Virus record (IMG/VR): IMGVR_UViG_3300021138_000063
Location: 1 to 41,316 of that record
Source: a virus
Length of the DNA stretch: 41,316 bases
Direction: 5' to 3' (one strand)
In this document: one piece after another, positions 11,606 to 39,096 of the stretch
Position numbering within the stretch: the stretch's first letter is position 1
Layout of the letters: every line of letters begins with the position of its first letter
The notes under the pieces: model-generated
What the model saw: only the letters and a program-made list of their open reading frames with translations
Databases searched by the model: none
Told to the model about the DNA's origin: nothing
Made by a program: the position numbers and the translations under genes

Positions 11606-12234
11606 GACTGTACTCCAATCCATACTGGGTATTCAGGATCTCCCGCAACAAACATAACCCACACCAGCTGACCCACTTCAGGTACAGAACGGTGGAAGGT
11701 ATGCTCAGGGCTGTTTGGGCTAGGTGCTGTGCCGGCTACGGTGCCCGGTGCAGATATCCCACTAGCAGAAGTATAGGTACTTATTTCTTTAGCGTCCGTA
11801 GAACTAGCGTTAGAGTATGGAGATGATGAAACTACGCTAGTGCTTGCTTTGTACATTGGGTGGGTAGTTTGATGGGCATGGTTAAGCTGTTTGGTAGCAT
11901 CTTTTGCAACTACCGTAAGAGCTGGAATGCTGACCGTTACCGTACCGCCTTGAGGATCCGAGCCTGATGCACTAGATGTGGAGGTTGTAAGAAGTGCTGC
12001 AATCTGGCTAGCTGTATGCGGGTTATGGTCCGGGTGATATGAGTTATCAGTAATAGGAAGACATGCCAAAGCCCAGTTAGTTACTTCCCCGCCGGTTGGT
12101 TGTGGGATTTGAACTTGAATTCGGTTTCTTCCGGTAGGGTCTTGGTTATTAATTACCTTGGCAGAGTAGATACCGTAAAACCGTGTCCTACCCATGAAAT
12201 CCATACCATAGTCTGTCTCGTTTGGTAGCGCCAT
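11602..12234 (-). CDS. OB-fold baseplate spike protein (gpV/gp5 N-terminal type)
   Basis: A 210-residue protein. Residues 10-60 (RTRFYGIYSAKVINNQDP, then RIQVQIPQ) match the OB-fold domain of gpV/gp5 and VgrG-type spikes. A long low-complexity Ser/Thr/Ala stretch follows, and the C-terminus (VPEVGQLVWVMFVAGDPEYPVWIG) completes the OB fold typical of Phage_base_V proteins, so the fold appears split by a loop of about 110 residues. It would cap the tube and form the central spike. The ATG at 12234 shares a base with the upstream TGA; a GTG three bases earlier is an equal alternative. No tapering beta-helix tip is evident. Confidence 0.8.
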   Translation of the reverse strand: MALPNETDYGMDFMGRTRFYGIYSAKVINNQDPTGRNRIQVQIPQPTGGEVTNWALACLPITDNSYHPDHNPHTASQIAALLTTSTSSASGSDPQGGTVTVSIPALTVVAKDATKQLNHAHQTTHPMYKASTSVVSSSPYSNASSTDAKEISTYTSASGISAPGTVAGTAPSPNSPEHTFHRSVPEVGQLVWVMFVAGDPEYPVWIGVQS

Positions 12235-12851
12235 CACTTCACAACCTTACTGTTAGTTTTAGACGACCATTGTACCGTCCTTTTAACATTGCTGTTATTC
12301 GGTGCCCTTGTAGCGTTAGGGCTTACCCCTGCAACAGCGGGGACTGCGGTAGGCGACTGAGAAACTACAGCGCTGTTTGGTACGGCTGTTGTTTGAGGAC
12401 TCAAAGAGTTTAAGTTAGGACTGGTGTTATATTGAGACAATGCCGCCCCTGAGGAACTCAAAGATTGTCCAGATAGGTCGCCTTGGATATCCCGTTGTTG
12501 GGCTCTTGTTGCCGCATCAGGATCTACTTCCCCAATAACATCTGTACCTACTTCTATCTCCATAATATAGTTAGCCGTAGTTCCACCAAAACTATGTGTA
12601 ATAGATAATACAGTCCAGTATCCGGACATGTTATTAGGAAGGCCATCTAAGTAAATAGGGTCAAAAAGTTTTAATGTAGGATCGGGAAAGAGAGTCACAA
12701 TAGCCCTGTGTTGATACCTATGGTTCTCAGCAAAGTTGGCTGCAATTGTTTTAGACTCTGTTAAGCTAGTAGCTACCTCGTGTACATGGTGTTTTTTAAA
12801 TACAGATGTAGGGGCGCTCTTAGGGCTATTGTTAGAGAAGTTACTGGTCAT
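12234..12851 (-). CDS. Baseplate hub-associated protein
   Basis: A 205-residue protein. Residues about 20-110 (VTLFPDPTLKLFDPIYLDGLPNN and WTVLSITHSFGG) resemble the C-terminal hub domain found in gpD/gp27-like proteins, where a segment describing the bound-axis domain ends in H-x-F. The second half is a disordered Ser/Ala/Pro/Asn-rich tail with a basic end. Together with the gene upstream it seems to make up a hub protein split into two chains. The ATG overlaps the upstream TGA by four bases, so the two are made together in equal amounts. The split-hub reading is inference. Confidence 0.65.
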   Translation of the reverse strand: MTSNFSNNSPKSAPTSVFKKHHVHEVATSLTESKTIAANFAENHRYQHRAIVTLFPDPTLKLFDPIYLDGLPNNMSGYWTVLSITHSFGGTTANYIMEIEVGTDVIGEVDPDAATRAQQRDIQGDLSGQSLSSSGAALSQYNTSPNLNSLSPQTTAVPNSAVVSQSPTAVPAVAGVSPNATRAPNNSNVKRTVQWSSKTNSKVVK

Positions 12852-13735
12852 GGCGCACCTGTAGGAGAACCAAAGGACGGCGACTTAAAGTACTGCGGAT
12901 TAGGGATGACCACGCCAGACGTACTTGTATTAGGGGCTTTGTATTTGTGCGTGCTATTCAATATCGCACTTGTTTGATGGTTTGTTCCAGCAATAACACG
13001 GTCTACCCTAACACCTGCTTCAGGAGCCTGGTCTGAGATAATAGGGTGGAAGGATAGGATGTCCCCAAGAACTTTTCTTTCTCTAGGGATTGCTCCAGCA
13101 TTTTCATCATTAAGATACTTAAAGTAAGGGGCAGAGTTCTTCTTGCTCTGATAGATCTTATCCTTAGATACAAAGTAGATAGTTGTATTTTCAGATAACA
13201 AAGTAAAGCCGGTCTGCTTTGCTAGGCGGCGAAGCAGTTGCCAAAAGCTTTCTCCCGAATGTACGATGGCAGAACGTTGACGTGGGTGACGCTGGGTTAC
13301 AGCTTCAAATCCAAAACGTTGGCACACCTGTGTTACAACCTGGTCGGCTGTTACATTCTTGTATACCTTTTGGTCCGTATCTTTTAACACCCAGGTAGCT
13401 CCTACACATACCATGTCTGTATTTCCACCTTGGTACGTATTTGTTTGGTCTATGTGGTTTACATACCCGTTCCATGTAGTCTTCTTCTTACCGGAAACAA
13501 TGGTAAAGATAACTGGATCTCCTGAGACAATAGCCGCTCTTTTTAGAAAAGGGTTTCCTTTAAAGTGCAGCACTAAACGGTCATGCTGCTCTATGCCTTG
13601 ATGAAGTTCAGCTCCCAATAAAAATAGATCCATGTCAGGGGCTTTTGGAAAAGACACAGTAAAAGAAGCCTTGTAGCTTTCAGCTCTCCATACAAAAGAC
13701 TGAAGCGCAGGTGAGCTAGAGTAATCAGCTGCCAT
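12848..13735 (-). CDS. Baseplate hub protein, gpD/gp27-like
   Basis: A 295-residue protein. Features fitting the late-control D/gp27 hub family include VIFTIVSGKKKTTWNGYV (first barrel), then VTADQVVTQVCQRFGFEAV and SFWQLLRRLAKQTGFTLLSE, the classic segments in which a short helix precedes a second barrel. It would form the trimeric ring between tube and spike. It follows the LysM gene with an 11-base overlap and precedes the second hub piece with ATGA. The C-terminal end (SGVVIPNPQYFKSPSFGSP) looks like a flexible tail. Confidence 0.82.
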   Translation of the reverse strand: MAADYSSSPALQSFVWRAESYKASFTVSFPKAPDMDLFLLGAELHQGIEQHDRLVLHFKGNPFLKRAAIVSGDPVIFTIVSGKKKTTWNGYVNHIDQTNTYQGGNTDMVCVGATWVLKDTDQKVYKNVTADQVVTQVCQRFGFEAVTQRHPRQRSAIVHSGESFWQLLRRLAKQTGFTLLSENTTIYFVSKDKIYQSKKNSAPYFKYLNDENAGAIPRERKVLGDILSFHPIISDQAPEAGVRVDRVIAGTNHQTSAILNSTHKYKAPNTSTSGVVIPNPQYFKSPSFGSPTGAP

Positions 13736-24691: not shown

Positions 24692-25681
24692 TCACCTATT
24701 AAACTCTTTAGGGATGTACCCCTCTTTAAATGGCCCGTACTTAAGGTTGATCTTTGTGTACCTGCAGAACCGGTCAACCTTGGCCTTGTTAGCCGGATTA
24801 GTTACGTACTTTACCCAGTTGTCCCTAATACTGTTGTAGTACTGCTCATTAGGAAGTATCTTAGGGTTGGCTCCACTTACCCTGTAGGTTGGGTGCAGTA
24901 CTTGATCAAAGTCTGTATTATTTTGAAATAGATGAGATAGCGGAACGGTCATGTTTGGAAACACTAAAGAAAAACCAGCCTCTAGCAAACTCATAGTTTG
25001 AATGATCTCTTCTTCCCAAAAAATAGTGTCTATATCTAAGCCGGTATTACCAAAATAGTGCTTGTTAGAGAAGACAAACTGAGCGTTAAACTTAACAGCA
25101 GGTACATATAGATCGTCTGACCTGTACATGTGCGAATCAGGACCGGCCAACGGTTCGTCTTTCCAAGCAGGAATTCCTGTATTTACCCATGTCCTAAACA
25201 ACATGATGGGGTACTGGGCAAGCTTATCGTGCCTTAAAGGAACACGCTCACCGTTATCTAGATGTTTAAACCCAGGCAAATAAGCTGTCATAATTGTTTT
25301 TGGATTTTGAGTAGCTTCTAGGGCACCCTCGTACATCTTAATAAGCTTAGTATCCCAATTTCTTTCAAAGAGTGTATGGGAATCTACTTGAAGAATATAG
25401 TCTTCCCCATCATACATAGATAGGGCTTGATCTCGACCAAAACCAATAGACGGCTCATATTCTCCTACCTTAAACCTCTTAAACTTAACTTGGGAGAATT
25501 CAAGTAGCTTCTCAATCTTATCTTTATAGTAGAACTCATAGTCTACATTTGAATGGGCAGTCTCCATAAGAACAAGGCCTATAGTTAAGTCGTCTGGATT
25601 AGCGGCGCTTTGGATAGCCTCAAATACGGTAAAGGGAACCTGGTTATCATACATGGTTGGGATAGCAATATAGATAGACAT
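24692..25681 (-). CDS. GlcNAc-type glycosyltransferase
   Basis: A 329-residue GT-A fold glycosyltransferase. It begins MSIYIAIPTMYDNQ (nucleotide-binding strand), has GFGRDQALSMYDGEDYILQVDSH with the metal-binding D-S-H at D100-H102, and then FERNWD. This order (GR...a..Y.gE.y.LqxDSHx.F...WD) is the hallmark of the GlcNAc-transferase family related to Skp1-modifying enzymes (PF11397 type). It should transfer a sugar from a nucleotide donor in the cytoplasm, with phage structural proteins or host wall glycans as possible acceptors. AGAGGATTAAT precedes the start, one base after the stop of the mini-protein upstream. Confidence 0.85.
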   Translation of the reverse strand: MSIYIAIPTMYDNQVPFTVFEAIQSAANPDDLTIGLVLMETAHSNVDYEFYYKDKIEKLLEFSQVKFKRFKVGEYEPSIGFGRDQALSMYDGEDYILQVDSHTLFERNWDTKLIKMYEGALEATQNPKTIMTAYLPGFKHLDNGERVPLRHDKLAQYPIMLFRTWVNTGIPAWKDEPLAGPDSHMYRSDDLYVPAVKFNAQFVFSNKHYFGNTGLDIDTIFWEEEIIQTMSLLEAGFSLVFPNMTVPLSHLFQNNTDFDQVLHPTYRVSGANPKILPNEQYYNSIRDNWVKYVTNPANKAKVDRFCRYTKINLKYGPFKEGYIPKEFNR

Positions 25682-25682
25682 A

Positions 25683-25844
25683 TTAATCCTCTAGGTCTAC
25701 AAAGGTTGGATTATTTAAAAACAGGGACGCCAATCTAGCACTGTTTACTGCAAAGACTTCTACAATCTCTCCGTCTATTACTATACCTAGACGTATAGAC
25801 CTTACCTCAGCAACTGGCTCGGCTTCCTTTTTCTTTTTAAACAT
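25683..25844 (-). CDS. 53-residue mini-protein, shortest of three paralogues
   Basis: A frame from ATG 25844-25842 (or the adjacent ATG at 25847) to TAA 25685-25683. After a basic MFKKKKEAEP start comes a hairpin-like core, IRLGIVIDGEIVEVFAVN, then FLNNPTFVDLED. This core is shared with the proteins at 31877-32263 (LAIVLDGIVVDVMNVQ) and 32973-33308 (VAMVINGVVHTVFNLD), each followed by a (N/G)P(T/S)F motif. It overlaps or abuts the upstream TGA. The function is unknown, but the constant pairing with the protein upstream suggests they act together. Confidence 0.8.
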   Translation of the reverse strand: MFKKKKEAEPVAEVRSIRLGIVIDGEIVEVFAVNSARLASLFLNNPTFVDLED

Positions 25845-26527
25845 CATGAATACTCCTTTGGCTTACGCCATAGTTTTTTATACACACCTGTTGCAGAACG
25901 AAGATAGCTACTTCTTTCTACTTGATGGTCCGTTTCAGTGTAGTCTTGGACGGATACCCACTTATCTCTTTTAATAGGGATTAGCTGGGCAATGGGTGTT
26001 CCTGCAGGTATTGTACCTGTCCAACCCTCTCTTATGAAAAAGGGTACGTTACCCCAACCAGTAAACTCTTCGCTGTCAACAATCCCAGACATAGTAGTGA
26101 AAGGTAGGTCAAATCTATTTATTGGGTGCGTTAAAAGTGCGCTATATCCTGGAGGAACTTTCCAACCCCATTGACAGTTCCATGCAAGGTGGTTGTGGGC
26201 ATGTCCGGCAGGACGTGGGATAGTATGGCCTGTCAAACCAAGGCGTTCGGTTAGCACCGGAAAGCCTGTCTCTTCCCAGCTTAGTTTAGATCTACCCTCT
26301 TCGTCTAAAGTTACTTCTACATCAACGGGGGTAACCAACATATAACCAGAAATCATGGCGTCTAGAAAAGGTACACAGACTTTTAAGCCGTCGTATTTGA
26401 CGCCATGCTTATCATAGTAATGACGCTCAGCATTTTTATACCAGTCTGGGACTTCGCTCTTTGCTGGTACTGGCGGTTTATGTTCTTTTTTTACACCAGG
26501 ACTAGGTACAAACCTAAAGACCTTCAT
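25844..26527 (-). CDS. Conserved phage protein of unknown function, paralogue A
   Basis: A 227-residue protein paralogous to the one at 32263-32955. Shared blocks are MKVxRFVP at the start, P-x-W-Y near residue 28, a WGWK-x-P-x-G segment, THPxNRxDLPFxTMS, and IREGWTGTIPAGTPxxQxIPxKR near the end. The last block, with its turn-rich I-P-A-G-T-P, recalls jelly-roll or dUTPase-like strands but I cannot name the fold. It follows the Tyr-rich lectin-like gene with a strong GGAGGAG site. The paralogue follows the other Tyr-rich lectin-like gene, so the context is duplicated too. Confidence 0.8.
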   Translation of the reverse strand: MKVFRFVPSPGVKKEHKPPVPAKSEVPDWYKNAERHYYDKHGVKYDGLKVCVPFLDAMISGYMLVTPVDVEVTLDEEGRSKLSWEETGFPVLTERLGLTGHTIPRPAGHAHNHLAWNCQWGWKVPPGYSALLTHPINRFDLPFTTMSGIVDSEEFTGWGNVPFFIREGWTGTIPAGTPIAQLIPIKRDKWVSVQDYTETDHQVERSSYLRSATGVYKKLWRKPKEYS

Positions 26528-26546: not shown

Positions 26547-27815
26547 TTAACCTGTGATCGTGGCCGTAAAGTAACCTAAGGTACTTCCCTGAGCTTGATC
26601 CGACGTAGTCAAAATTATACCAGCTTTTGTTGCGGTAGGAGAACTGCCTAAAGTGGTTGTGGCGGTGCCTACGCTAGTGGTTTGTGAATTATCGCTAAAC
26701 GCTGTGGCGGTAACTGAAGTACCATGAACTACAACCTTTAGAGAAGCTAAAATACCACTTAGGGTGGTGGTGGCAAGCGTGGAAACTGTTCCGGCCACTG
26801 ATTGGTAAATTTTAAGCAAATACTGGATGTTCGTAGTTGTGGCAGACCCTGTTGCTGTATAGGTAGAGGGAACCGTGTAGCTGTCTGTAGACGAGTAGGT
26901 TCCGGAATAGTATGGAGAGTAATTTGTGTAGGATCCTAGTGAACTATAAGAGGTGTAAGTTTGTGCTGTATATGGGGTGCTTACATCGCCAGTATGAGCT
27001 ACAGCGTTGTTATATGAGGTGTAGGTTGGTTGAACATACGTGCTGTAGGTACCGTATTGAACTACATACCGCTGTGTACCGGCATATTGTCCGCCACCTA
27101 TGTAACTATATGGTGCTCCGTATGCACCTGGGTTTGCAATGTAATACTGGTAAGTTCCATGATCCCAAAAACCTGCAGTAGCATACTGATAATGGGTGGA
27201 GTATACGTATGCTCCGTCCCAAGAATAGTTGGTTCCTGAAACATAGTTTCCTGTACCTTGATAAACAGTAGAGTAGTAGTAAGTGGTTCCGCTTGCATAA
27301 TAACCTAGTGGTGTACCTGAGGTATATGGGGTGGCGTAGGTGTATGGGGCTGTATATGTGTACGGGGCAGTATAAGAATATGAGTACGTAAAGTAAGTAT
27401 CGCTCTCAACACCCACAGCAGCAAGCCAGTTATTAGAGTCTGTTACTAAGAATGATATGCCAGAACCTAAGCTTACGTTTTGAGCGGTAGCGGTTACGTT
27501 CGGGTTACCCATATCCGTAGCAGCAATAGGGTATGTAGATGGGCTAGTAGCAGTTGTAGCCACGCCGTTATTAGAGGACCAGATGCCAGAGATGGCGTTC
27601 CATACTCCGCCGCTAGAAGATGTCCCTAACGAACCAGAGGTAAGTCTTGCAAAAGTATCAGCAAATTGTCCAGTAAACCACTGATGCCAAACGCCACCAA
27701 TTTTAACCCAACCAGATGTTACAGAGTGCCAGCTTTGAATACCGCCGGTTGTCACCTTAGTTAGAATACTACCAGCTGTACGCCAAACCCCGCCTACTTT
27801 GACTTGACCACTCAT
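26547..27815 (-). CDS. Lectin-like fibre protein with Tyr-rich insertion (paralogue A)
   Basis: A 422-residue protein. Residues 1-50 hold two short Trp repeats (VGGVWRTAGSIL, IGGVWHQWF). Residues about 51-140 and 325-422 form the two halves of a ConA-like jelly roll: FADTFARLTSGSLGTSSSGGVW, then VTDSNNW, and later LLKIYQSVAGTVSTLA and GIILTTSDQAQG. A 180-residue insertion at 141-320 splits the domain. It has about 44 Tyr with Ser, Thr, Gly and Ala, no Cys, and few charges. The same split domain occurs in the protein at 33320-35023. It is probably a fibre tip with the insertion exposed for receptor binding. It starts by sharing a base with the upstream TAA (TAATG). Confidence 0.75.
   Translation of the reverse strand: MSGQVKVGGVWRTAGSILTKVTTGGIQSWHSVTSGWVKIGGVWHQWFTGQFADTFARLTSGSLGTSSSGGVWNAISGIWSSNNGVATTATSPSTYPIAATDMGNPNVTATAQNVSLGSGISFLVTDSNNWLAAVGVESDTYFTYSYSYTAPYTYTAPYTYATPYTSGTPLGYYASGTTYYYSTVYQGTGNYVSGTNYSWDGAYVYSTHYQYATAGFWDHGTYQYYIANPGAYGAPYSYIGGGQYAGTQRYVVQYGTYSTYVQPTYTSYNNAVAHTGDVSTPYTAQTYTSYSSLGSYTNYSPYYSGTYSSTDSYTVPSTYTATGSATTTNIQYLLKIYQSVAGTVSTLATTTLSGILASLKVVVHGTSVTATAFSDNSQTTSVGTATTTLGSSPTATKAGIILTTSDQAQGSTLGYFTATITG
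26856..27395 (-). repeat. Tyr-rich low-complexity coding stretch, paralogue A
   Basis: These codons encode residues 141-320 of the lectin-like protein. On the minus strand TAT/TAC, ACN, TCN and GGN codons alternate in short irregular units such as TAPYTYTAPYTYATPYTS. Roughly one residue in four is Tyr. It is a coding repeat, not an intergenic element. Confidence 0.85.
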
Positions 27816-28806: not shown

Positions 28807-29241
28807 CTAGCCAACTAGGTACTTGGTGCAGACCCCGTAGATACCCTCAAAGATACTTAAATCTGTAGGCTCAGTAAGTACCACTATTGACTTGTTTGTC
28901 AAAGCCCTACCAGGGTAAGTCCAGATATATCCGTTACTTGTCAGGGTGTGGTCGTCATTCTGGTGCCAGAAGAACCTGGCATCCGGGATGTTGTTAGAAA
29001 AATAGCCAAGGGCTTCTATGTTCTTGCAGTGGAACCAGGTTTTATCTTTAATAGAGTTGATAAACTCCTCGTCAATCTGGTAGAAGGGTTCGTCATGTCC
29101 TAGGAACATACCTTCCGGATTCATCCAGACATCAACCTCTACGTCATAGCCTTGGGCAATAGCAGAGACTACGTCAACAGGATTGTTCTCCCCGTCCTTG
29201 TTTTCTCCCCTAATCAAACCTCTATGGGCAATCTTAAGCAT
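28807..29241 (-). CDS. Minimal GDPD-like phosphodiesterase
   Basis: A 144-residue protein with the glycerophosphodiester phosphodiesterase core: H6-R7 (AHRG), E35-x-D37 (VEVDVW) and H49-D50 (LGHDEP). These are the metal-binding and catalytic residues of that TIM-barrel family. The length is only about 60% of a normal GDPD barrel, with no later conserved strands evident, so it is a cut-down or divergent form. It overlaps the stop of the HAD-nucleotidyltransferase gene by eight bases. It could act on glycerophosphate groups of host teichoic acids or lipids, or on a phage glycan; that is inference. Confidence 0.75.
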   Translation of the reverse strand: MLKIAHRGLIRGENKDGENNPVDVVSAIAQGYDVEVDVWMNPEGMFLGHDEPFYQIDEEFINSIKDKTWFHCKNIEALGYFSNNIPDARFFWHQNDDHTLTSNGYIWTYPGRALTNKSIVVLTEPTDLSIFEGIYGVCTKYLVG

Positions 29242-30595
29242 TGTTACTCCTAAGGTAGTTGTTTAGATCCTCTGGAGTTCCCACTCCCCACATCTTATTA
29301 ACATGCATAGCATATACACGCTTCCCATCATTAATAGCTTCATTAAATACTGGGGCGGTATAGAACTCTCCGTTAACTGTGATGTTCTTTTCCATCATCT
29401 GCTCAGCGTACTTAACAAAGTCTGAGCCATGCTTCCAATAGTAAATGCCCACAGTTGCATGATTGCTAATAGGCTTCTTCTCAGCAACTTCTAAAACAAG
29501 GCCTGTATCAGATGCGATTCTTGCATAAGACCACTTAGGGTGGGTAGAGGTGAATGTTGCAATGCCGGCATCAGCATTCTTTACGTTCATATGATACATA
29601 AAGTCTCTGCTGTCCCAGTCAACGATTTGATCTGAGTTAGCTATGATCAGAGGCTCATCATTATTAATAAGCTCTCTTGCAAGTAAACAGGTCTGGGCCG
29701 CACCGCCTGTAAGCACTGGGGTGCTGATCAAATGGCATCCAGGGGTGATCTTGTCTAGCATGAACATCAAGTTGTATTTTTCTACATGCTCCTGCATAGA
29801 AACATAGATGTAGTTTGCCTCTATACCAAGGCTCTCTACTACACGCTCGATCATAGGCTTACCGTTAACTTCAATAAGAGGTTTAGGGAAGCTATAGCCA
29901 GCATCCGCAAAACGACTCCCTAGTCCTGCCATTGGGATCAAAACATTCATCTTCTTATCCCTAAATGAAGAGGCTTTAGATAGGTGCTCTAGAGCAAGAT
30001 CAATCTTTTCTTTAGTAAGATCTTCCCTATTCTTAATCTCAATAAGATGAGCCCCACTATCCCTAGCAGCAAGTTTTCCAACAAAGCTGTCTTCAAAGAT
30101 AACAACATTTGTTGGAACAGTCTTGAAATAGTTCATGATAGACCAATACATTTCTGGGTGGGGCTTAGAGTTTGCAACTCCGCCATTAGATATGGCTACA
30201 TCCACGTATGGAAGTATCCCCAGTTTATCTAGGCAGGTCTCTACAGTCTTGGAAATACTGTTACTGGCAACGCCGATACCAATGCCCTTTGATGCAATGT
30301 ACTTAAAGTGCTCTACAAGATCCCTATCTTCTACTACGTTCTCAAACATCTCTGCAGTGTACTTTTGCTTAAGTTCCCAAATTACTGGGTGCAGCTCTTG
30401 AACAAGCCCCTTACTCTCAGAGAGAATAAACAGCTTCTCCTTAGTAGGCAACCCCTCATATATATTCTTGTGGTCAAAAGTACTAATTACAAGCTCAGGA
30501 GAAACATCTTCCAACGCCATATTCAGAGCGGTAAAATGAATGTCCTTGCTGTCAATCAAGACCCCATCAAGATCAAAGATTATAACTTTTTTCAT
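29234..30595 (-). CDS. HAD phosphatase fused to sugar nucleotidyltransferase
   Basis: A 453-residue bifunctional protein. The N-terminal half is a HAD hydrolase of the phosphoglycolate phosphatase/phosphomutase group: nucleophile motif FDLDG (D8, D10), a Ser-Asn motif at about 111-112 (ASNS), Lys in NSKPHPEM (about 144) and EDS (168-170). The C-terminal half is a nucleotidyltransferase: MNVLIPMAGLGSRF (216-229), then FPKPLIEVNGKPMI (236-249). It would dephosphorylate one sugar or polyol phosphate and activate another with NTP. The ATG at 30595 overlaps the upstream TGA by four bases (ATGA); a start at 30607 is possible. It likely feeds the glycosyltransferases nearby. Confidence 0.87.
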   Translation of the reverse strand: MKKVIIFDLDGVLIDSKDIHFTALNMALEDVSPELVISTFDHKNIYEGLPTKEKLFILSESKGLVQELHPVIWELKQKYTAEMFENVVEDRDLVEHFKYIASKGIGIGVASNSISKTVETCLDKLGILPYVDVAISNGGVANSKPHPEMYWSIMNYFKTVPTNVVIFEDSFVGKLAARDSGAHLIEIKNREDLTKEKIDLALEHLSKASSFRDKKMNVLIPMAGLGSRFADAGYSFPKPLIEVNGKPMIERVVESLGIEANYIYVSMQEHVEKYNLMFMLDKITPGCHLISTPVLTGGAAQTCLLARELINNDEPLIIANSDQIVDWDSRDFMYHMNVKNADAGIATFTSTHPKWSYARIASDTGLVLEVAEKKPISNHATVGIYYWKHGSDFVKYAEQMMEKNITVNGEFYTAPVFNEAINDGKRVYAMHVNKMWGVGTPEDLNNYLRSNNA

Positions 30596-31599
30596 GCTGA
30601 TAACCACGCTTTCAAGAAAGGATCGTTTTCAATAGTATTAATTACCTCGTCCGAACTTCTATTTAGATTAGGAATAGAGACGTAGCGGTGACCCAATCTT
30701 GCGGCCATTAAGTGATAGAAGTGGTGCATCTCTTCTGTGCCTACAGAGGCAGGCTCAGTAACACCGTTACCAACACTAGTAAAAGAAATAAGCGGAGTAG
30801 TCAGCTCAAGCACGGCAGACCCAGGCGGCATAAATGCAGCGTTTACAAGACCAGAGCTAGTTGTTGATGCTACCAACTTAGCCTTGCTAAAGTAGCTGAT
30901 CTGTGATTCAAAGGTCTTAAATTCATCGGGGGCTACAATATCAAACCCTAAAGATGCAAAGTAGTTCTCTACCTTGCCTTCATCATCCATGCGGTCATCA
31001 TCCTCATATGGAAGCCGCCCTTTGATCAGAGCTTTAAGGGACCTGCCCTTGTAATTCTTTCTAGTTAGGTAGACTTTCTTACCATCTGCCACGTTTACAT
31101 CCGGGGTAATGAACTGCTTAGACATTTCGTGGATCTTTGGCCAAGGGTTGTTTACCTCATACGACTCTACTAACAGGTCTCTAAAATAGAGGTTATTGAT
31201 GTTGAACTTATTTATGACCCTAAGATCTACCGGCGCATAGTCTACGCCGTTCTTATTAAGGAACTTAAAGAAGTTCTGAATGTAGGTTGGAAGCGGATCT
31301 CTATCTACAACCCCAGTGATATCAATAATAAACAGGGCATCTGGAGTTAAAGCGTATTGAGCTAAAAACTCACCTAGATCCTCATGCATAAAGTGGTAGA
31401 AAGATCCCCCCAGATAAACAAATACCTTCATCTGGTCTGAGATGAAGTCTTTTACATGCTTCTCTTTCTTTCCAAACTTTGGGTGAACCTGAAACATGTT
31501 GATATTGTTGCTTGCAACCAGACCTACTTCCTCTGGAGCAAAGCGGTAAGACGTTTGATATGACGTATGATTGAGCGTAGTGGTGCTAGTAGACTTCAT
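30592..31599 (-). CDS. GT61-like glycosyltransferase (DUF563 type)
   Basis: A 335-residue protein. The C-terminal half matches GT61/DUF563: KKVYLTRKNYKGRSL, then VENYFASLGFDIVAPDEF, ISYFSKAKLVASTTSSGLVN and AAFMPPGSAVLELTTP, the usual order around the catalytic pocket. GT61 enzymes commonly transfer pentoses or other sugars to glycans. It lies upstream of the HAD-nucleotidyltransferase gene and overlaps it by four bases, so the donor-making and donor-using enzymes are probably made together. GAGGGAT precedes the ATG. The acceptor is unknown. Confidence 0.82.
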   Translation of the reverse strand: MKSTSTTTLNHTSYQTSYRFAPEEVGLVASNNINMFQVHPKFGKKEKHVKDFISDQMKVFVYLGGSFYHFMHEDLGEFLAQYALTPDALFIIDITGVVDRDPLPTYIQNFFKFLNKNGVDYAPVDLRVINKFNINNLYFRDLLVESYEVNNPWPKIHEMSKQFITPDVNVADGKKVYLTRKNYKGRSLKALIKGRLPYEDDDRMDDEGKVENYFASLGFDIVAPDEFKTFESQISYFSKAKLVASTTSSGLVNAAFMPPGSAVLELTTPLISFTSVGNGVTEPASVGTEEMHHFYHLMAARLGHRYVSIPNLNRSSDEVINTIENDPFLKAWLSA

Positions 31600-31877: not shown

Positions 31878-32263
31878 TATTGTGATCCACGCCTTGTAAC
31901 TCCGTGGATGCCAAATGGTTCAAACTTGCCATCTTTATGGACAGATCCAACAGGAGGGCGTGGGTCTCCATCATTAATCTTAACAAATGATGGTCCCTTT
32001 AAAAGAAGTTCGCTAAAACCCTTTTGAACGTTCATAACATCTACTACGATACCATCTAAAACGATAGCCAAGGATACGACTTCTACTCCGGCAGGAGGCT
32101 CGTTTACCGCACATTCTGGGCCATGAACATGTTCTGCAGGGGCATGCTGATGATCGTGGTCATGTTTTTTAGCTGCACGCTTTCCCTTTAAGTACTTAAC
32201 AAACTCTTTAGTACTCATAGGCCTTACTTCTGGAACATCGTAGTTCCTAATAACCTTATCCAT
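31877..32263 (-). CDS. His-rich mini-domain protein, second paralogue
   Basis: A 128-residue protein. Residues 32-51 (KKHDHDHQHAPAEHVHGPEC) contain six His and one Cys in 18 residues, a likely metal-binding stretch. Then comes the hairpin core shared with two other proteins here, LAIVLDGIVVDVMNVQ, followed by KGPSFVKI and PRPPVGSVHKDGKFEP. The end of the paralogue at 32973-33308 (DPGFLYTDGAFTPP) resembles this last stretch. Its ATG shares a base with the upstream TAA. The His-rich insertion is absent from the paralogues, so it is an addition in this copy. Confidence 0.75.
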   Translation of the reverse strand: MDKVIRNYDVPEVRPMSTKEFVKYLKGKRAAKKHDHDHQHAPAEHVHGPECAVNEPPAGVEVVSLAIVLDGIVVDVMNVQKGFSELLLKGPSFVKINDGDPRPPVGSVHKDGKFEPFGIHGVTRRGSQ

Positions 32264-32955
32264 TACTCGTAATCCTTCTTAACCCACTCGACGTTTTTAT
32301 ACTTATACTGCTCAACACGTACGTTTACAGACTTAACTCTTCCAAGAGCAGTCAAACCAACATCTACAAAAGATCTCCATGAAGCTCTTTTAACGGGTAT
32401 GATTTGTACAAAAGGTGTGCCAGCAGGAATAGTACCTGTCCAGCCTTCCCTTATATGAAAAGGAATGTTGCCATTAGTAAAGAATTTGTCGCTGTCAATA
32501 GTAGCAGACATAGTTCTAAATGGAAGATCGCTTCTGTTAAATGGGTGGGTAACAATAGTGCTCCAACCACGTGGTGTTTTCCAACCCCACTTAGAAGACC
32601 ATATCAAATGGTTCTTGCTGTGACCGGCAGGCACAGGGATTGTGGCTCCAATAGCACTAGGGCGTTCACCAACAAAGCCTTGCCATGCATCTGGCCCATC
32701 CCACCTTATATTCATTTTTCCGTCTTCATCACGGGTGACGTGGATGTCAAAAGGTATAAGGAGAAAATACCCGCCGATCATCACATCAATAAAGGGCTTG
32801 CAGGTCTTTAAGCCCGGATTGTTATTCCCGTTTTCATCAACCCAGTGATACTCGCCATCTCTATACCATTGAGGTACGTACTTTTTACACGGCTCTGGCT
32901 CAAGGAGCATGAGCTCTTTATCTTCAATTTCTGGAACAAATCGTATTACTTTCAT
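32263..32955 (-). CDS. Conserved phage protein of unknown function, paralogue B
   Basis: A 230-residue protein paralogous to the one at 25844-26527. It starts MKVIRFVPEIEDKEL and keeps P-Q-W-Y, SKWGWKTPRGWS, THPFNRSDLPFRTMS, and the 17-residue HIREGWTGTIPAGTPFV. Outside these blocks the two have diverged strongly, so the duplication is old. It is followed by the His-rich paralogue and preceded by the third hairpin paralogue, a richer version of the arrangement around copy A. GGGAGGG precedes the ATG. No catalytic motif is recognised. Confidence 0.8.
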   Translation of the reverse strand: MKVIRFVPEIEDKELMLLEPEPCKKYVPQWYRDGEYHWVDENGNNNPGLKTCKPFIDVMIGGYFLLIPFDIHVTRDEDGKMNIRWDGPDAWQGFVGERPSAIGATIPVPAGHSKNHLIWSSKWGWKTPRGWSTIVTHPFNRSDLPFRTMSATIDSDKFFTNGNIPFHIREGWTGTIPAGTPFVQIIPVKRASWRSFVDVGLTALGRVKSVNVRVEQYKYKNVEWVKKDYE

Positions 32956-33319: not shown

Positions 33320-35023
33320 TTAGTTTGACTGGGAATTGAAGTCGTCTAGTTGATTACCTTGAACGTAATCAGAAGGTCCTAGGACGATTCCAAACTTAGT
33401 GGCTATTGTAGCACCTGTTGCTGTATATGTGAGGTCGGAACCTATTTGGGTGGTCAAAGCGGTATTTGAGTATGGGCGGATGGTAATAACCTTAGTTACA
33501 GCATTGGTAATTACCTTAAACGCTGCAGCAAGCTGGGATAGGCTCCAACGGGTAATCTCAGATACAACGTTACTTGAGGACTGGATAAGGCGAATATATC
33601 CAGGGAAACAGGTCTGGCAGTTACAGGAGGTATAGCCATATTGAGGGGAAGAGCAGTATGGGGCATAGGTGGCGTAGTAAACGGTACATACTGGGCCATA
33701 GTAGTTATTAGTAAAAGAGTTGCAGTTAGGGCCAGAATAGCTTGAAATTCCGTAGTTGGCGTTTGGTCCAGAGTAGGAATTAGCTCCATATCCGCCACAG
33801 TTAGGGCCAGAATAGCTTGATACGCTATATACCTGGTGAGTTCCATAGCTTGATACACCGTATGAGCTACAAGTAGAGCCTGCATAAGCTGAGCAGCTGG
33901 AGCCTGAAGTAGAGTAGCTTGAACAGCTGTAATAAGTGCTGAAAGACAAGCAGCCAGAAGAATAGCTAGCGCATGGGTGCCCACTCACGGCATAGCTAGT
34001 GCAATCTGGAGCGCGGATGTAGTAGCTTCCACCTTTATAGTAAACGTTTCCGTAGGCTAAACAGGAGTAGGAGGTTCCATAGGATGCACAAGATCCTGAA
34101 TAGTATGAGCTACAAGAAGATCCGGAAGAGTATCCACTACATCCATAGTTGTTAGCGTAGGCTACACATGATGGAGTATAAGAAGCACATGCGTAGGTGG
34201 AGTAGTATGCGTAGTTTGAATTATAGTTGGTTGCATAAGAGTAGCCTCCAGTACAGCCGTATCCAGATACAGCATATGAATAGCTTACAACTCCATAGTT
34301 GGTTGCATAAGAGTAGCCACCGGTACATGATGCACTGCTATAGTAGGCGTAGTTTCCGCAATAAGTTCCGGTTACATATGGGGTATACGCAGCACAAGAG
34401 TAGGTTGCACAGGTGGAGCAGTTACAGGAAGTATTGGTTGAGCGACCATAAGTTACTCCCCACCAGTTGCCCGAATCAGTAACCCACATAGCAACACCAG
34501 CACCACCATCGTTATTGCGGGTGGCCACGTTAGTAATGCTACCTGTAGTTGGGGCTGAAGAGGCCTGAACCTCAAGAGTGATCTGGCTAGAGCTATCTAC
34601 CGAAACAATCTGAATATCAGTATCTGTTCCAAGAGATCCAGTTCCAGGTGTAGCTGAGATCCATTGACCTGCGCCAAGACCTGCTGTGGAGCTAAGTCCG
34701 GTAACAACAACGGTATACCCACTAGTTGTTGGGGTTACGGTTGAGATTGTTCCAGAAGCAGAGAATACAAAGGTAGAGCCCACAGAAATTGAAGAGGTAT
34801 TGCTTTGGGAGGTCATGTTTACGTCAGCAAGTGGGTATGAAGATGCTGCTGTGGCAGTAGTAGCAGAATATCCGTTGGCGCTCCAAACGCCACGCTCTGC
34901 TTTCCAAGCACCGCCTGAGCTAGATGTTCCTAGCGAACCTGAAGTGGTTCTATTGAAGTTATCCGAAAAGGAGGCAAAAGCCGTTTGGATAAAGTTCATT
35001 AACCCTTGAAAAATACCAGACAT
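33320..35023 (-). CDS. Lectin-like fibre protein with Tyr/Ser/Cys-rich insertion (paralogue B)
   Basis: A 567-residue protein built like paralogue A. The ConA-like domain is in two halves: FSDNFNRTTSGSLGTSSSGG (19-38) to MWVTDSGNWWGVTYGR (179-194), then GYIRLIQSSSNVVSEI onward (475-567). The insertion spans about 200-472, has about 55 Tyr and all 26 Cys of the protein, and is bracketed by C-N-C-S-T-C (200-205) and C-N-C-Q-T-C (467-472). A roughly 80-residue strand-rich piece near 85-165 (STVTPTTSGYTVVVTGL) is missing from copy A. It shares a base of its start with the TAA of the long fibre upstream. It is probably a fibre tip with a disulfide- or metal-clamped surface. Confidence 0.75.
   Translation of the reverse strand: MSGIFQGLMNFIQTAFASFSDNFNRTTSGSLGTSSSGGAWKAERGVWSANGYSATTATAASSYPLADVNMTSQSNTSSISVGSTFVFSASGTISTVTPTTSGYTVVVTGLSSTAGLGAGQWISATPGTGSLGTDTDIQIVSVDSSSQITLEVQASSAPTTGSITNVATRNNDGGAGVAMWVTDSGNWWGVTYGRSTNTSCNCSTCATYSCAAYTPYVTGTYCGNYAYYSSASCTGGYSYATNYGVVSYSYAVSGYGCTGGYSYATNYNSNYAYYSTYACASYTPSCVAYANNYGCSGYSSGSSCSSYYSGSCASYGTSYSCLAYGNVYYKGGSYYIRAPDCTSYAVSGHPCASYSSGCLSFSTYYSCSSYSTSGSSCSAYAGSTCSSYGVSSYGTHQVYSVSSYSGPNCGGYGANSYSGPNANYGISSYSGPNCNSFTNNYYGPVCTVYYATYAPYCSSPQYGYTSCNCQTCFPGYIRLIQSSSNVVSEITRWSLSQLAAAFKVITNAVTKVITIRPYSNTALTTQIGSDLTYTATGATIATKFGIVLGPSDYVQGNQLDDFNSQSN
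33608..34426 (-). repeat. Tyr/Ser/Cys-rich coding repeat region, paralogue B
   Basis: These codons encode residues 200-472 of the lectin-like protein. Exact DNA repeats are visible: a 22-bp copy at 34225-34246 and 34297-34318 (72 bp apart, in frame, encoding GGYSYATNY) and a 23-bp copy at 33723-33745 and 33798-33820 (75 bp apart, in frame, encoding SSYSGPNC). All spacings are multiples of three, so recombination between copies would keep the frame. Confidence 0.85.
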
Positions 35024-37326
35024 TACGTAAGCCCATTTCCACTAATCATCCAAGTAGTTGCAGCAACTTTTAAGAGAGTTGCCATTCCGTATGGTGCTAA
35101 GGTTCTAGACCCTGTAGCCCCGGTTCCTGCTTGCATTAGTATATCAGATGTGATAGAAACCGTCACAGTCACGCTAGAAGCTGCTACCAAGGCTATAGAC
35201 GTGCCTACAGGAAAGGCGACCGATGCATTTGCTGGAACGGTAAGTGTGCAGTTTGCGTTAAAGTAGATGTGCTTTCCAGCATCGCTGGCTATTAAGGTAT
35301 ATGTTGATCCCACTGCTGGCTGTAAATTTTGAGGCATTCCTGTATAGCCAAGACCAGAGGCGGCGCTTGTAACAGATGCTGCCGTAGGCACAACGCCAGT
35401 AGATAGAGAGCCTGCCGCAATATTTGCTGCAGGGAATGATCCCGAGGTAATAGTGCCTACAGTAGTGATAGAAGAAGATCCGGCAATAGGTGAGTATGTA
35501 GAGGCAGCAGTACCGGTGGTTAGGTATGTAGATGAGTCTAGAGAGCCATCTCCCTTAACAAACTGTGAAGATGTACCGCCACTGGTTATGTGAGAGGTTG
35601 CAGTTACAGATGTTAATCCAGAGAGTGTTAGGGTAGTTCCGCCCAATGAAACAGAGGTTGTACCCAACGTAATAGATGAGTTGGTAAGGCTTGAGTTAGC
35701 AATGTTGGTAAGGGTGTTAGAAGACCCAGAGATTGCCTTATTTGTAAGAGTCTGGGTGGCGTCAATAGTGGCAATATCGCCCCCTGTCGTTCCACCTGGG
35801 GTGCGACCTAGAACCTGTGTAGGGGTAAGAACTGTGGTTCCAGCAATATGGTAGGTTTTACCGGATGCAAGATCAAAGTGCTCAGATGAAAGCCATGAAC
35901 TGGTTGAAGACTGCCATTGAAGAGTTTTGTTAGTGGTACCGTATAGAAGCATACCTCCACCATTTGCGGTGGAATCAGAAGGTGTAGCAACCTTGCCAAT
36001 TTCTATATTCTTATCTTGAACCAGTAGGGTAGAAGAGTTGATAGTTTCGGTTGTTCCGGTAACGGTAAGGTTACCGTTAATGGTTACGGTACTGTTAGTG
36101 TTACCAATATTGATTGTGTTGGCACCGGTTCCAACAGCGGCAATGTTTACCGTACCTGTAGTAATACCGGCACCGATAGCAAGGGCTCCAGTTGTTACGT
36201 TAGGAAACAGGGTTGCTGTAGTTCCGGTTGCAGATGCTGCGTTAATGTTATCAATTACCGGTACAGTTAAGGTCTTATTTGTAAGGGTCTGGACGCCGGT
36301 TAGTGTTGCAACAGTAGAGTCAATAGCTACGGTTACAGCACCAGAACCGTCATAGGATGAGCCGCTAAGGCCTGTGCCTATTGTAAGAGCATTTGGATTG
36401 ACCGCTTTAATTGTAATATCGGCAGAGCCATCAAACGAAACGCTGTTAATCAAACGAGCAGTTTGCAGCTTAGTTGCGGTAGCTGCATTGCCATCAATGC
36501 TAACACCGGTTAGAGATTGAGAAGCAGACGCACGGTTTAAGGCAATAGATGTAGTACCGATATAGTGCGTAGAGTTGCCTAATACAGTTGAGGGAATAGT
36601 TCCAGTAAGATTACCCGCTGTTAGGTTGGTTAGATTGGCTCCAGATACGGCACCAAACAAGCCTGACCAAGTACCAGTAGTGATGGTTCCGGTAGTGGTC
36701 AGTGACGAGGATCCAGCAATAGGGGAGTAAGTAGATGCCGCTGTTCCTGTAGTTAAATATGTGCTTGAATCTAGGGTTCCATCACCCTTAACAAACTGAC
36801 TTGATGTGCCGCCAGAAGTTATAAATTTTGGAGCTGTAAGATTTCCTGTAAAAGTATTGTCTACACCGAGCCGTGGAACAACAGTAGTATCAATAGCCAA
36901 TGTTCCGGAAGAGGTTATTGTTCCTCCAGTAAGACCAGTACCTGCAGTGATAGAGGTTACTGTTCCGCTACCGCCAACAGAGGCCCACTGTAACCCAGAA
37001 CCTGTAGATTGAAGTACTTGACCTGACGTACCGGTTGTTCCTCCAGCAGAGATTTTAGGTACGCTTAAAACACCGGCATCCGTAAGGTTGAAGATGTTTG
37101 CGCTATAGGCATCGTTGATGATCTGAAGATCACCTGTGCTGTTAACACGAAAGTTTTTGCTAGGGTTGGTGGCACCCGAGTAGGTGTTAGTAACGATGAG
37201 AAAATCATGATACCCGGTACCACCACGATTTGCATAACCTACTAGCTGTAAAGCCTGACTAATACCTGTCGTATTAATGACAAGCGTACCTGCTACGTTA
37301 GCCGAGGATAAGAAAGCCCTTGTCAC
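35023..37326 (-). CDS. Long tail fibre protein with repeated shaft modules
   Basis: A 767-residue fibre rich in Thr, Ser, Gly and Ala. It starts from GTG at 37326, with AGAGG upstream. It has GTVTSITAGTGLTGGTITSS, a common phage fibre shaft motif, near 121-140, and two copies of a module, ITSGGTSSQFVKGDG followed by LDSSTYLTTGTAASTYSPIAGSSS (near 169 and 580). Two LTNKxLxxPVI/LTNKAISGSS segments mark further repeats. The last 100 residues resemble a jelly-roll-like cap (YTLIASDAGKHIYFNANCT). It is coupled to the Cys/Tyr-rich lectin-like gene by a shared base, so the two may form shaft and tip. Confidence 0.85.
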   Translation of the reverse strand: MTRAFLSSANVAGTLVINTTGISQALQLVGYANRGGTGYHDFLIVTNTYSGATNPSKNFRVNSTGDLQIINDAYSANIFNLTDAGVLSVPKISAGGTTGTSGQVLQSTGSGLQWASVGGSGTVTSITAGTGLTGGTITSSGTLAIDTTVVPRLGVDNTFTGNLTAPKFITSGGTSSQFVKGDGTLDSSTYLTTGTAASTYSPIAGSSSLTTTGTITTGTWSGLFGAVSGANLTNLTAGNLTGTIPSTVLGNSTHYIGTTSIALNRASASQSLTGVSIDGNAATATKLQTARLINSVSFDGSADITIKAVNPNALTIGTGLSGSSYDGSGAVTVAIDSTVATLTGVQTLTNKTLTVPVIDNINAASATGTTATLFPNVTTGALAIGAGITTGTVNIAAVGTGANTINIGNTNSTVTINGNLTVTGTTETINSSTLLVQDKNIEIGKVATPSDSTANGGGMLLYGTTNKTLQWQSSTSSWLSSEHFDLASGKTYHIAGTTVLTPTQVLGRTPGGTTGGDIATIDATQTLTNKAISGSSNTLTNIANSSLTNSSITLGTTSVSLGGTTLTLSGLTSVTATSHITSGGTSSQFVKGDGSLDSSTYLTTGTAASTYSPIAGSSSITTVGTITSGSFPAANIAAGSLSTGVVPTAASVTSAASGLGYTGMPQNLQPAVGSTYTLIASDAGKHIYFNANCTLTVPANASVAFPVGTSIALVAASSVTVTVSITSDILMQAGTGATGSRTLAPYGMATLLKVAATTWMISGNGLT

Positions 37327-37338
37327 TTAAAGGACCTC

Positions 37339-39096
37339 TTATCCGAAGACTACTACACGTATTTGGTTTGTTGTAGGTGCTGTTGAGAAGGCAACTGTAA
37401 CAGTATTTGTAGTAGAGTGTGTAACGTCTGCAAAGTACTCAACGTTAGTTGAATTGTCGTATAAGGTAACCTGAACATCCGTGGTAGCCAAGTTGTGGGT
37501 TACTGTGTAAGAAAGCGATGCGCCATCACCGATTGAGGTAGCGTACTTGCGTACTACTACGTCGGTGTTGATAGCTACCTGGTTAGTGGTTGCTGCTCCA
37601 GCAGCACCCTGGCCAGAGATGGTGATACCAAGACCTGGAGTTACTGCCAAACCGCTGGTTGTTGTAGCCAAACCAGAGGTGCTGTTGAGCAAGATCAAGG
37701 CACCAAATGAGTTGGTTGTCAAACCACCGGAGGTAGTTGGGTTAAGAGCAAGACCTGAAGAGGTAGTTGTCAAACCTGATGCTGAAGGCAAGAGGATAGA
37801 TGCTCCGCCAGAATCTGCTGCCAAACCGCCAGTTGAGGTTGGGGTGAATGAGAAGGTTTCTCCAGTAAGGTTAAGTCCGTTACCAGCTAGGTAAGTTCCA
37901 GCACCAGAGAACTGGGTGAAGGTGATCGCATCGGTGCCAATCTTAATTCCATCATGTGGAGTAGATGAAGATCCAAGGTTAGACTGTACCCAACCTGTGT
38001 TAGCCTGTCCACCCGAACCAACAAAGACGAAGTCTCCAGCAACTACTTGACCAGCAACGTAGTTATCATAATCGGTTGCACGAGTCAAGACGGTTGCAAC
38101 ACCGGAAGTTCCAGCAGTTGTTACTAAGTAGATACCGTTTGCCTCGCTAGATGTTCCTGCGTCTGCAGTAACACCGTTCTTAACAAGAATACGGTCGCCA
38201 GATGCAAGTGTGTAAGAATCAACAACTGTTGTTCCTGTTGAAGAGAAGGTAATTGTTGCGCCTACGCCAGTACCGCCATCAGCACCTGATGTACCAGCAG
38301 AATATGTAGCTGCAAGAGTTGTTGCGGTTGCTACAGATACAGAACCGTGTACGTTAAGTGAGCTTGCAGTTGCGTCAACGTATGCTTTGTTAGCTGCATC
38401 AGTTCCTGCAGTTGGTGTGGCAAGGTTTGTGATCTTATGGTTGTTTAGAGAAACATCTGCTGCTGGAGCGCCAAAAGTATCAAGTGTAAAGTTAGAAGGA
38501 GTAAATGCGTGAACGTGATCTTCACGAGCAGGAGCAGTACCAGTACCTACTCCAGCAGAAGCTGCTGTAATTGTAGACGGTGTTACAGATGTAAGTGAAG
38601 GCGTACCGTGGGTGTGGTCTGAGTGGGCTACGGTTGTAGCTGAACCATTTGAAGATCCAAGTCCATAAGATGTAGCAGCTGTTACCGCACCAAAACCAGG
38701 ACCTGCGTGGGTATGATCTGCACGAGCAAAGTTGGTAGATGTTCCGTCTGCGGCTGTTCCAGCAATTGTTAAAGTAGTGCTAGCTCCGGAACCAAAAGCG
38801 TTGGTCTGCTGCCAAGTGGTTCCGTTAGAGTAGTAAACTAAGAAGTTATCAGTAGCATAATAAAAAGTACCTGATGCTACGGCAGTCGCAACTGGACGAG
38901 AAGCAAGTGCACCTGCGCTAATTCCGTCAGCAGAACCCCAAGCAGTACCATTCCAGATATACAAACCGTTAAGAGCAGTGTCGTAGTAGATCTGACCTAC
39001 TACTGGAGATGAAGGTGCCGTTGCAAGGTTTTGAATTCGAGCATTTTGAAGCTCAAGCTTGCCTAAATCAATTGGGGTTAAAAACTTACGTGCCAT
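37339..39096 (-). CDS. Tail fibre or appendage protein
   Basis: A 585-residue protein. It begins MARKFLTPIDLGKLELQNARI, then has GQIYYDTALNGLYIWNGTAW, a common module at the N-terminus of phage fibres. DFTxARADHTHAGP/DHTHGTP and EDHVHAFTP are His-rich fibre shaft repeats (about residues 125-200) that could bind metal ions. KAYVDATASSLNVHGSV with the following block is a further fibre module. The C-terminus (YTVTHNLATTDVQVTLYDNS) belongs to the same H-N-L domain type as the gene just upstream. AAGGAGATAGTAA precedes the ATG. Confidence 0.85.
   Translation of the reverse strand: MARKFLTPIDLGKLELQNARIQNLATAPSSPVVGQIYYDTALNGLYIWNGTAWGSADGISAGALASRPVATAVASGTFYYATDNFLVYYSNGTTWQQTNAFGSGASTTLTIAGTAADGTSTNFARADHTHAGPGFGAVTAATSYGLGSSNGSATTVAHSDHTHGTPSLTSVTPSTITAASAGVGTGTAPAREDHVHAFTPSNFTLDTFGAPAADVSLNNHKITNLATPTAGTDAANKAYVDATASSLNVHGSVSVATATTLAATYSAGTSGADGGTGVGATITFSSTGTTVVDSYTLASGDRILVKNGVTADAGTSSEANGIYLVTTAGTSGVATVLTRATDYDNYVAGQVVAGDFVFVGSGGQANTGWVQSNLGSSSTPHDGIKIGTDAITFTQFSGAGTYLAGNGLNLTGETFSFTPTSTGGLAADSGGASILLPSASGLTTTSSGLALNPTTSGGLTTNSFGALILLNSTSGLATTTSGLAVTPGLGITISGQGAAGAATTNQVAINTDVVVRKYATSIGDGASLSYTVTHNLATTDVQVTLYDNSTNVEYFADVTHSTTNTVTVAFSTAPTTNQIRVVVFG

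Follow-up and report, generated by a model that had tools for sequence, protein, structure and literature searches.

The window analysed here is the whole stretch of 41,316 nucleotides, a 41-kb fragment of a virus record that encodes tail sheath, tube, baseplate and replication genes together with WhiB. Its baseplate protein is closest to those of GiJojo, BRock and other Streptomyces phages, and the gene content points to a phage with a contractile tail whose host is probably an actinobacterium. The gene of interest encodes a protein of 567 residues on the minus strand, its ATG overlapping the stop codon of an upstream fibre gene (TAATG). The features of this gene and of its surroundings are as follows:

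33320..35023 (-), whole gene, lectin-like protein with a Cys-rich insert, 567 aa
34973..35020 (-), N-terminal helix, residues 2-17, a helix in the AlphaFold2 model with a possible role in fibre attachment
34820..34972 (-), first part of the N half of the sandwich, residues 18-68, from aligned relatives and AlphaFold2
34520..34819 (-), extra Cys-free beta module, residues 69-168, a second insertion, in the N half
34427..34519 (-), second part of the N half, residues 169-199, with the signature WVTDSGNWWGV
34061..34426 (-), N-arm of the insert, residues 200-321, 13 Cys, starting with the bookend CNCSTC
34409..34426 (-), bookend CNCSTC, residues 200-205
34004..34060 (-), apex, residues 322-340, LAYGNVYYKGGSYYIRAPD, proposed tip hairpin
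33608..34003 (-), C-arm of the insert, residues 341-472, 13 Cys, mirroring the spacing of the N-arm and closing with CNCQTC
33608..33625 (-), bookend CNCQTC, residues 467-472
33323..33607 (-), C half of the sandwich, residues 473-567, from AlphaFold2
35023..37326 (-), fibre-like protein directly upstream, with the stop/start overlap, matching phrog_1833 (tail fibre) and phrog_6002 (virion structural)
37339..39096 (-), second virion/fibre-like protein upstream
32263..32955 (-), phrog_7084 protein, downstream
30592-31599 (-), GT61 glycosyltransferase of the fibre cluster
29234-30607 (-), HAD and nucleotidyltransferase fusion of the fibre cluster
26547..27815 (-), paralogue sharing the lectin-like halves, its insert Tyr-rich and Cys-free
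25844..26527 (-), second copy of the phrog_7084 protein, after the paralogue
24692-25681 (-), another glycosyltransferase of the fibre cluster

A preliminary description of this DNA had reported a Cys/Tyr insertion of about 270 residues, and this is what we find. Every one of the 26 Cys of the protein lies within residues 200-472, a 273-residue insert that also contains 55 Tyr, 60 Ser, 32 Gly, 24 Ala and 18 Asn, and just 3 charged residues. The protein has only two CxCxxC matches, the bookends CNCSTC and CNCQTC at either end of the insert. The loop is rich in Tyr in the window, but Tyr is not constant in the family of relatives described below, falling to 0-1% of the insert in members L037, L105, L122 and L192; the constant feature across the family is Cys with small polar residues and some aromatic ones.

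AlphaFold2 models the flanks of the insert as a confident beta-sandwich plus the N-terminal helix, while residues 196-472 have a pLDDT of 20-30 and the insert is not folded. The sole segment of the insert with predicted strands away from its base is 329-336, inside the apex. A model of L033, a member with six rungs, was poor (mean pLDDT 40, from 5 sequences); the insert of this family resists structure prediction as run here, with AlphaFold2 and the alignments at hand. The nearest PDB structures to the flanks by Foldseek are L-type (legume, ConA-like) lectins, which dominate the matches, at a weak E of 0.014 with a probability of 0.90 and a target TM-score of 0.24. Searches of the flanks against Pfam and PDB by sequence gave no match. 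The earlier proposal of a lectin-like domain split by a Cys-armoured insertion is supported, with the ConA-type assignment a weak one. Much closer structural matches were found in BFVD, namely the uncultured Caudovirales proteins A0A6J7WYT9 (E 2.5e-19) and A0A6J5KM36 (E 1.3e-11). Both are uncharacterised and undescribed, and by this structural likeness they and others in BFVD probably belong to the same family as the window protein.

Using scans of IMG/VR and profiles of the two halves, we assembled a family whose members, at least 93 distinct ORFs, all carry both halves and come from IMG/VR phage contigs. The insert ranges from ~70 to 410 residues and from 0 to 46 Cys, and sits between two Cys-free halves. 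In a first set of 22 homologues the flanks had no Cys in 22/22, with 14-32 Cys in the insert; in the full family the halves lack Cys in 90/93, the three exceptions being near-identical proteins with one Cys in the halves and a Cys-free 15-residue loop replacing the insert. The signature WVTD-x-x-NWW precedes the insert, and C-x-TCYPQYIR follows it in the nearer members. The extra beta module at residues 69-168 is shared by L008 and the window's close group and is missing from the other relatives aligned; it has no match in PHROGs. A copy of the window protein at 100% identity is present in a 93-kb record. Two candidate relatives, L016 and L017, matched by chance, through the string QGNQLDDF of a tail-tube-like protein, and were discarded. 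Two departures from the common build were also seen. L097 (4866-6932), L102 and L104 have an empty 15-residue loop and carry C-terminal Cys-rich modules instead (44 Cys), separated by proline runs of 10-24. In the subgroup of L175, L178, L189 and L193 the middle of the insert holds compact Cys modules, which in some members resemble CPSGCYYSSFFGQC and may form a knob on the arm; several of these four are only weakly mirror-symmetric.

No profile of Pfam, PHROG or NCBIfam matched the window protein or its family above chance. A search of PDB sequences returned nothing convincing for the full protein and nothing for a profile of the joined flanks, while tblastn against 50,697 phage records, with the window protein, L012, L009 and the paralogue as queries, gave no match. 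We found no description of such a build in open papers, and the novelty claimed here rests on those papers and on the libraries named; within them, the earlier statement that no described phage fibre family has this build stands. Since two scans of 84,980 bacterial and archaeal species genomes yielded no relative at the sensitivity used, prophages provide no link to a host. The carriers of the family are uncultured viruses, for the most part of ~100 kb, and actinobacteria look to be the hosts of many; WhiB scores above cut-off in 19/30 related records, among them the majority of those of ~100 kb.

In the loci inspected, the family gene lies directly after long, low-Cys, fibre-like genes. Most of the eight upstream genes tested match tail-fibre, minor-tail or virion-structural PHROGs, and several have a C-terminal phrog_8780 part. 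Downstream in the window are glycosyltransferases, a sugar nucleotidyltransferase and the phrog_7084 proteins, and it is possible that the glycosyltransferases of this cluster glycosylate the Ser/Tyr/Asn-rich fibres. The phrog_7084 protein, a candidate assembly partner or modifier, has a motif like P-x-WY, and proteins resembling it were recognised by eye after the gene in most of the other loci read. The insert of the paralogue comprises 193 residues, rich in Tyr, Ser, Thr and Pro, with no Cys; between two ~100-kb records it is more conserved than its flanks, the reverse of the Cys-rich gene. For L053 (in the record of L021), two Cys-rich copies lie ~5 kb apart in one phage, at 6551-7594 and ~12000-13044.

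The Cys of the insert are even in number in 93/93 family members. On a tree of the flanks this number has changed at least 46 times, each time by an even amount, an outcome with a probability of 2^-46 (~1e-14) if odd and even changes were equally likely each time. As controls, other residues are even in number in 44-56% of inserts, and Cys counted in the first half of the insert are even in 46%. Repeat units of two Cys were considered and rejected as the sole cause of this parity, given that repeats of the L098/L110 type have one Cys each, that single Cys are gained on both arms, and that the first half is even no more often than stated above. The most extreme Cys numbers are 42 in L341 and 46 in L114. 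The compact member L012 carries 18 Cys in an insert of 92 residues, and L098 has 10 Cys.

The spacing of the Cys along the insert is mirrored about its centre. In the window, the spacings of the N-arm are 2,3,5,12,11,24,22,7,9,9,8,9, followed by a centre of 20, and those of the C-arm, reversed, are 3,2,10,11,12,25,24,8,10,9,7,10. In L004 they are 2,3,5,12,11,34,7,18,7 and, reversed, 3,2,10,11,12,35,8,18,7 on either side of a centre of 20; in L059 they are 2,15,22,5,8,5,8 and 3,14,27,5,8,5,9 on either side of 14. Over 34 clusters, formed at <60% flank identity, the mean log difference between mirrored spacings is 0.42-0.44, against ~0.68 +/- 0.025 for shuffled spacings (z 9-11), and a signal is retained when the bookends, the two outermost spacings per side, are left out (z 4.8-6.2). 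The fit is best at register 0 (0.436, versus 0.59-0.70 at shifts of -3 to +2), and the signal is gone when the halves are compared unreversed (0.674). A cumulative form of the test gives a Fisher p of 1e-18, with 16/34 clusters individually <0.05. Among the clusters that fit no better than chance are those of L344, L335, L124, L323 and L076, suggesting other or mixed connectivity in some inserts. L341 appeared unmirrored in the single-spacing test (p 0.997), an artefact of rungs that set CC against CxxC: counted outward from the apex, the first seven units of two Cys measure 11,9,11,9,11,9,9 on either arm. In this protein CC on one arm faces CxxC on the other, and the apex CTGYGYNGRYGYGC is itself nearly palindromic.

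The two arms also match in what lies between the Cys and in how they grow. Within the window's group, Cys-free Tyr blocks are of matched length on either side: 22-24 versus 24-25, with 46 versus 50 in L002 and 34 versus 35 in L004. Where bookends are repeated, the copies are matched: six CNC face six CxxC in L033/L091, with three on each side in L014 and in L071 and two in L080 and L084. A further 32 members, including the window, have one on each side, a single member has 0:1, and the motif pair is missing from 53. It is important to note that the rule for counting rungs was drawn up after the sequences had been seen, so that these counts are supportive rather than independent. Single Cys are likewise gained on both arms together, as seen between L079 and L063, and between L110 (6:6 repeats of 11 residues) and L098 (5:5). 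The preliminary description had placed a clamp of disulfides or metal at the neck of the loop; the base does carry clamping Cys motifs, but the clamp appears to span the whole arm rather than the neck only.

That the loop varies more than its flanks while its Cys are kept had also been predicted, and is seen for example in L045/L058, where pN is 0.005 in the flanks and 0.129 in the insert and all Cys are retained. Most close pairs with equal Cys number keep all Cys, with other insert residues 65-90% identical and an insert pN several-fold above that of the flanks; more distant pairs have both gained and lost Cys. The divergence of the segments between Cys is mirrored in 7/8 groups (r 0.60-0.98; r -0.02 in the remaining group), the variable segments of the L009 and L060 groups being the middle rungs of either arm, between a conserved base and a conserved apex. 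L011 is a mosaic whose flanks match L010 (91-100% in most 90-base windows) and whose insert matches L013 (99-100%), a sequence pattern that indicates movement of inserts between phage backbones. The breakpoints are near the edges of the insert, but the whole region is mosaic, so they may not be special. The apex, taken as the segment between the two middle Cys, is often turn-like (NG, SG, GG, NGR) and is enriched in Lys/Arg, with 21 observed where segment length predicts 6.3. The share of Lys/Arg drops from 6.7% there to 0.8% at a distance of four segments, a trend not seen for Asp/Glu.

The simplest account of an even Cys number, mirrored spacing, matched rungs and mirrored divergence is a nested antiparallel arm. 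We consider it probable, if well short of certain, that the window protein is an adhesin of the tail-fibre tip, with a lectin-like base and a long antiparallel arm zipped by nested disulfides. The conserved base would consist of the short N-terminal helix and the lectin-like (ConA-type) beta-sandwich, and the two-stranded arm would be anchored in a turn between two adjacent sandwich strands. The chain would run out along the N-arm, turn at the apex and return along the C-arm, and disulfides nested as Cys(i)-Cys(n+1-i) would zip the arm from base to tip. In members with many rungs, CNC-type motifs on one side would stack against CxxC-type motifs on the other. Such a covalent ladder would fix the shape of the arm, leaving the residues between rungs free to change; the arm could then be altered through substitutions, through rungs gained or lost in matching numbers, or through whole inserts passing from phage to phage. 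We infer from the position of the gene directly after a tail-fibre gene that this is an exchangeable receptor-binding arm, as in T-even gp38, and variability and analogy point to the same role. The Lys/Arg-enriched tip and the variable middle rungs would be the probable receptor contacts, and the protein would presumably be attached to the fibre tip, with its disulfides formed in the virion. Because the bacterial cytoplasm is reducing, the ladder would have to close on release or be otherwise held until then. The wider proposal, that the insert constitutes a new single-chain architecture, in which as many as ~23 disulfide rungs are nested and added in step on both strands to give a rigid, exchangeable binder that can be re-surfaced, we regard as evenly balanced.

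Several other explanations must be weighed against this zipped arm. The arm might serve as a rigid spacer or whisker, either holding out some other element or making contacts between fibres, and might vary through weak constraint rather than receptor choice. The low-complexity repeat composition, the expansion and contraction of repeat units and the variability of the neighbouring fibre genes would all fit, yet we think this unlikely, given that the variability is patterned, with base, apex and Cys kept in some groups and the middle rungs varying on both arms, and that preservation of an even Cys number through at least 46 changes is a strong constraint. Less likely again is that the Cys are ligands for metal (Zn, Cu or Fe-S), grouped in CxC/CxxC clusters that clamp the loop or store metal. 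CNC and CxxC do resemble metal-binding motifs, the cytoplasm is reducing, and matched rungs could be four-Cys sites. Four-Cys sites alone are insufficient, however, to account for Cys numbers that are 2 mod 4 in 46 members and 0 mod 4 in 41, a split in the sequences that speaks for pairs over such sites; in addition, many rungs have one Cys per arm (the L098 and L110 groups, with a period of 11), and His is scarce in the window insert (2/273). Of the two clamps in the preliminary description, disulfides are thus favoured over metal.

An arm that is active on membrane or wall, like a giant beta-hairpin antimicrobial peptide, would share with those peptides an antiparallel hairpin closed by disulfides (PMC13001179), and the Lys/Arg enrichment of the apex recalls their cationic character. 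We regard this as very improbable, as the arms are far larger, almost uncharged (1-8% charged) and hydrophilic rather than amphipathic-cationic. A lectin-like frame bearing a variable region rich in Tyr, Ser and Asn also brings to mind the targets of diversity-generating retroelements (DGRs). We give almost no credence to a DGR as the source of variation in the insert: reverse transcriptase (PF00078) was found in 0/30 records, several of them fragmentary, and the variation takes the form of length changes and whole-insert exchange, not of substitutions at fixed adenines.

The window protein can be compared with several known systems. Gp38 of Salmonella phage S16 is encoded by the gene after the fibre gene, has an N-terminal helical attachment part, and extends the turns between its beta-strands into an unusual domain of stacked polyglycine-II helices on a beta-helix, with variable segments in a constant frame (PMC6851490). 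The window protein resembles T-even gp38 in following its fibre gene, here by an overlap and in several loci after genes with tail-fibre or minor-tail matches, in its helical N-terminus, in drawing out a turn between beta-strands into an unusual domain, and in placing variable segments on a constant frame. It differs in having a lectin-like sandwich with a proposed Cys ladder and no sequence match to gp38; the window insert is only ~12% Gly and has no glycine-rich motifs, so that the polyglycine-II feature is absent. The ultralong CDR H3 of bovine antibodies is likewise a very long insertion in one turn of a beta-sandwich, carried on a beta-ribbon stalk, and its disulfide-rich variable part differs in the number and positions of its Cys (PMC5994613). 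This likeness is one of analogy only: the bovine loop reaches 70 residues, compared with ~70-410 in the phage family, and has its disulfides in the knob, whereas those of the phage family apparently run along the arm. The window protein is a member of neither class.

The cystine ladders of beta-hairpin antimicrobial peptides and theta-defensins are likewise antiparallel hairpins with cross-strand disulfides, but in the families covered they span 17-25 residues with up to ~4 disulfides (PMC13001179), as against up to 23 predicted rungs inserted in a lectin-like domain. If the ladder is real, we have found no precedent for a Cys-rich scaffold of this size, and it would offer a virus a hitherto undescribed means of changing the surface of a binding arm without loss of rigidity. 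This reading predicts its own pairing, the first Cys with the last, and the scaffold would help to flag likely receptor-binding proteins in uncultured phages whose hosts are probably actinobacteria. Phages would then have a second route to a changeable surface on a rigid frame, beside glycine lattices and DGR-varied lectins.
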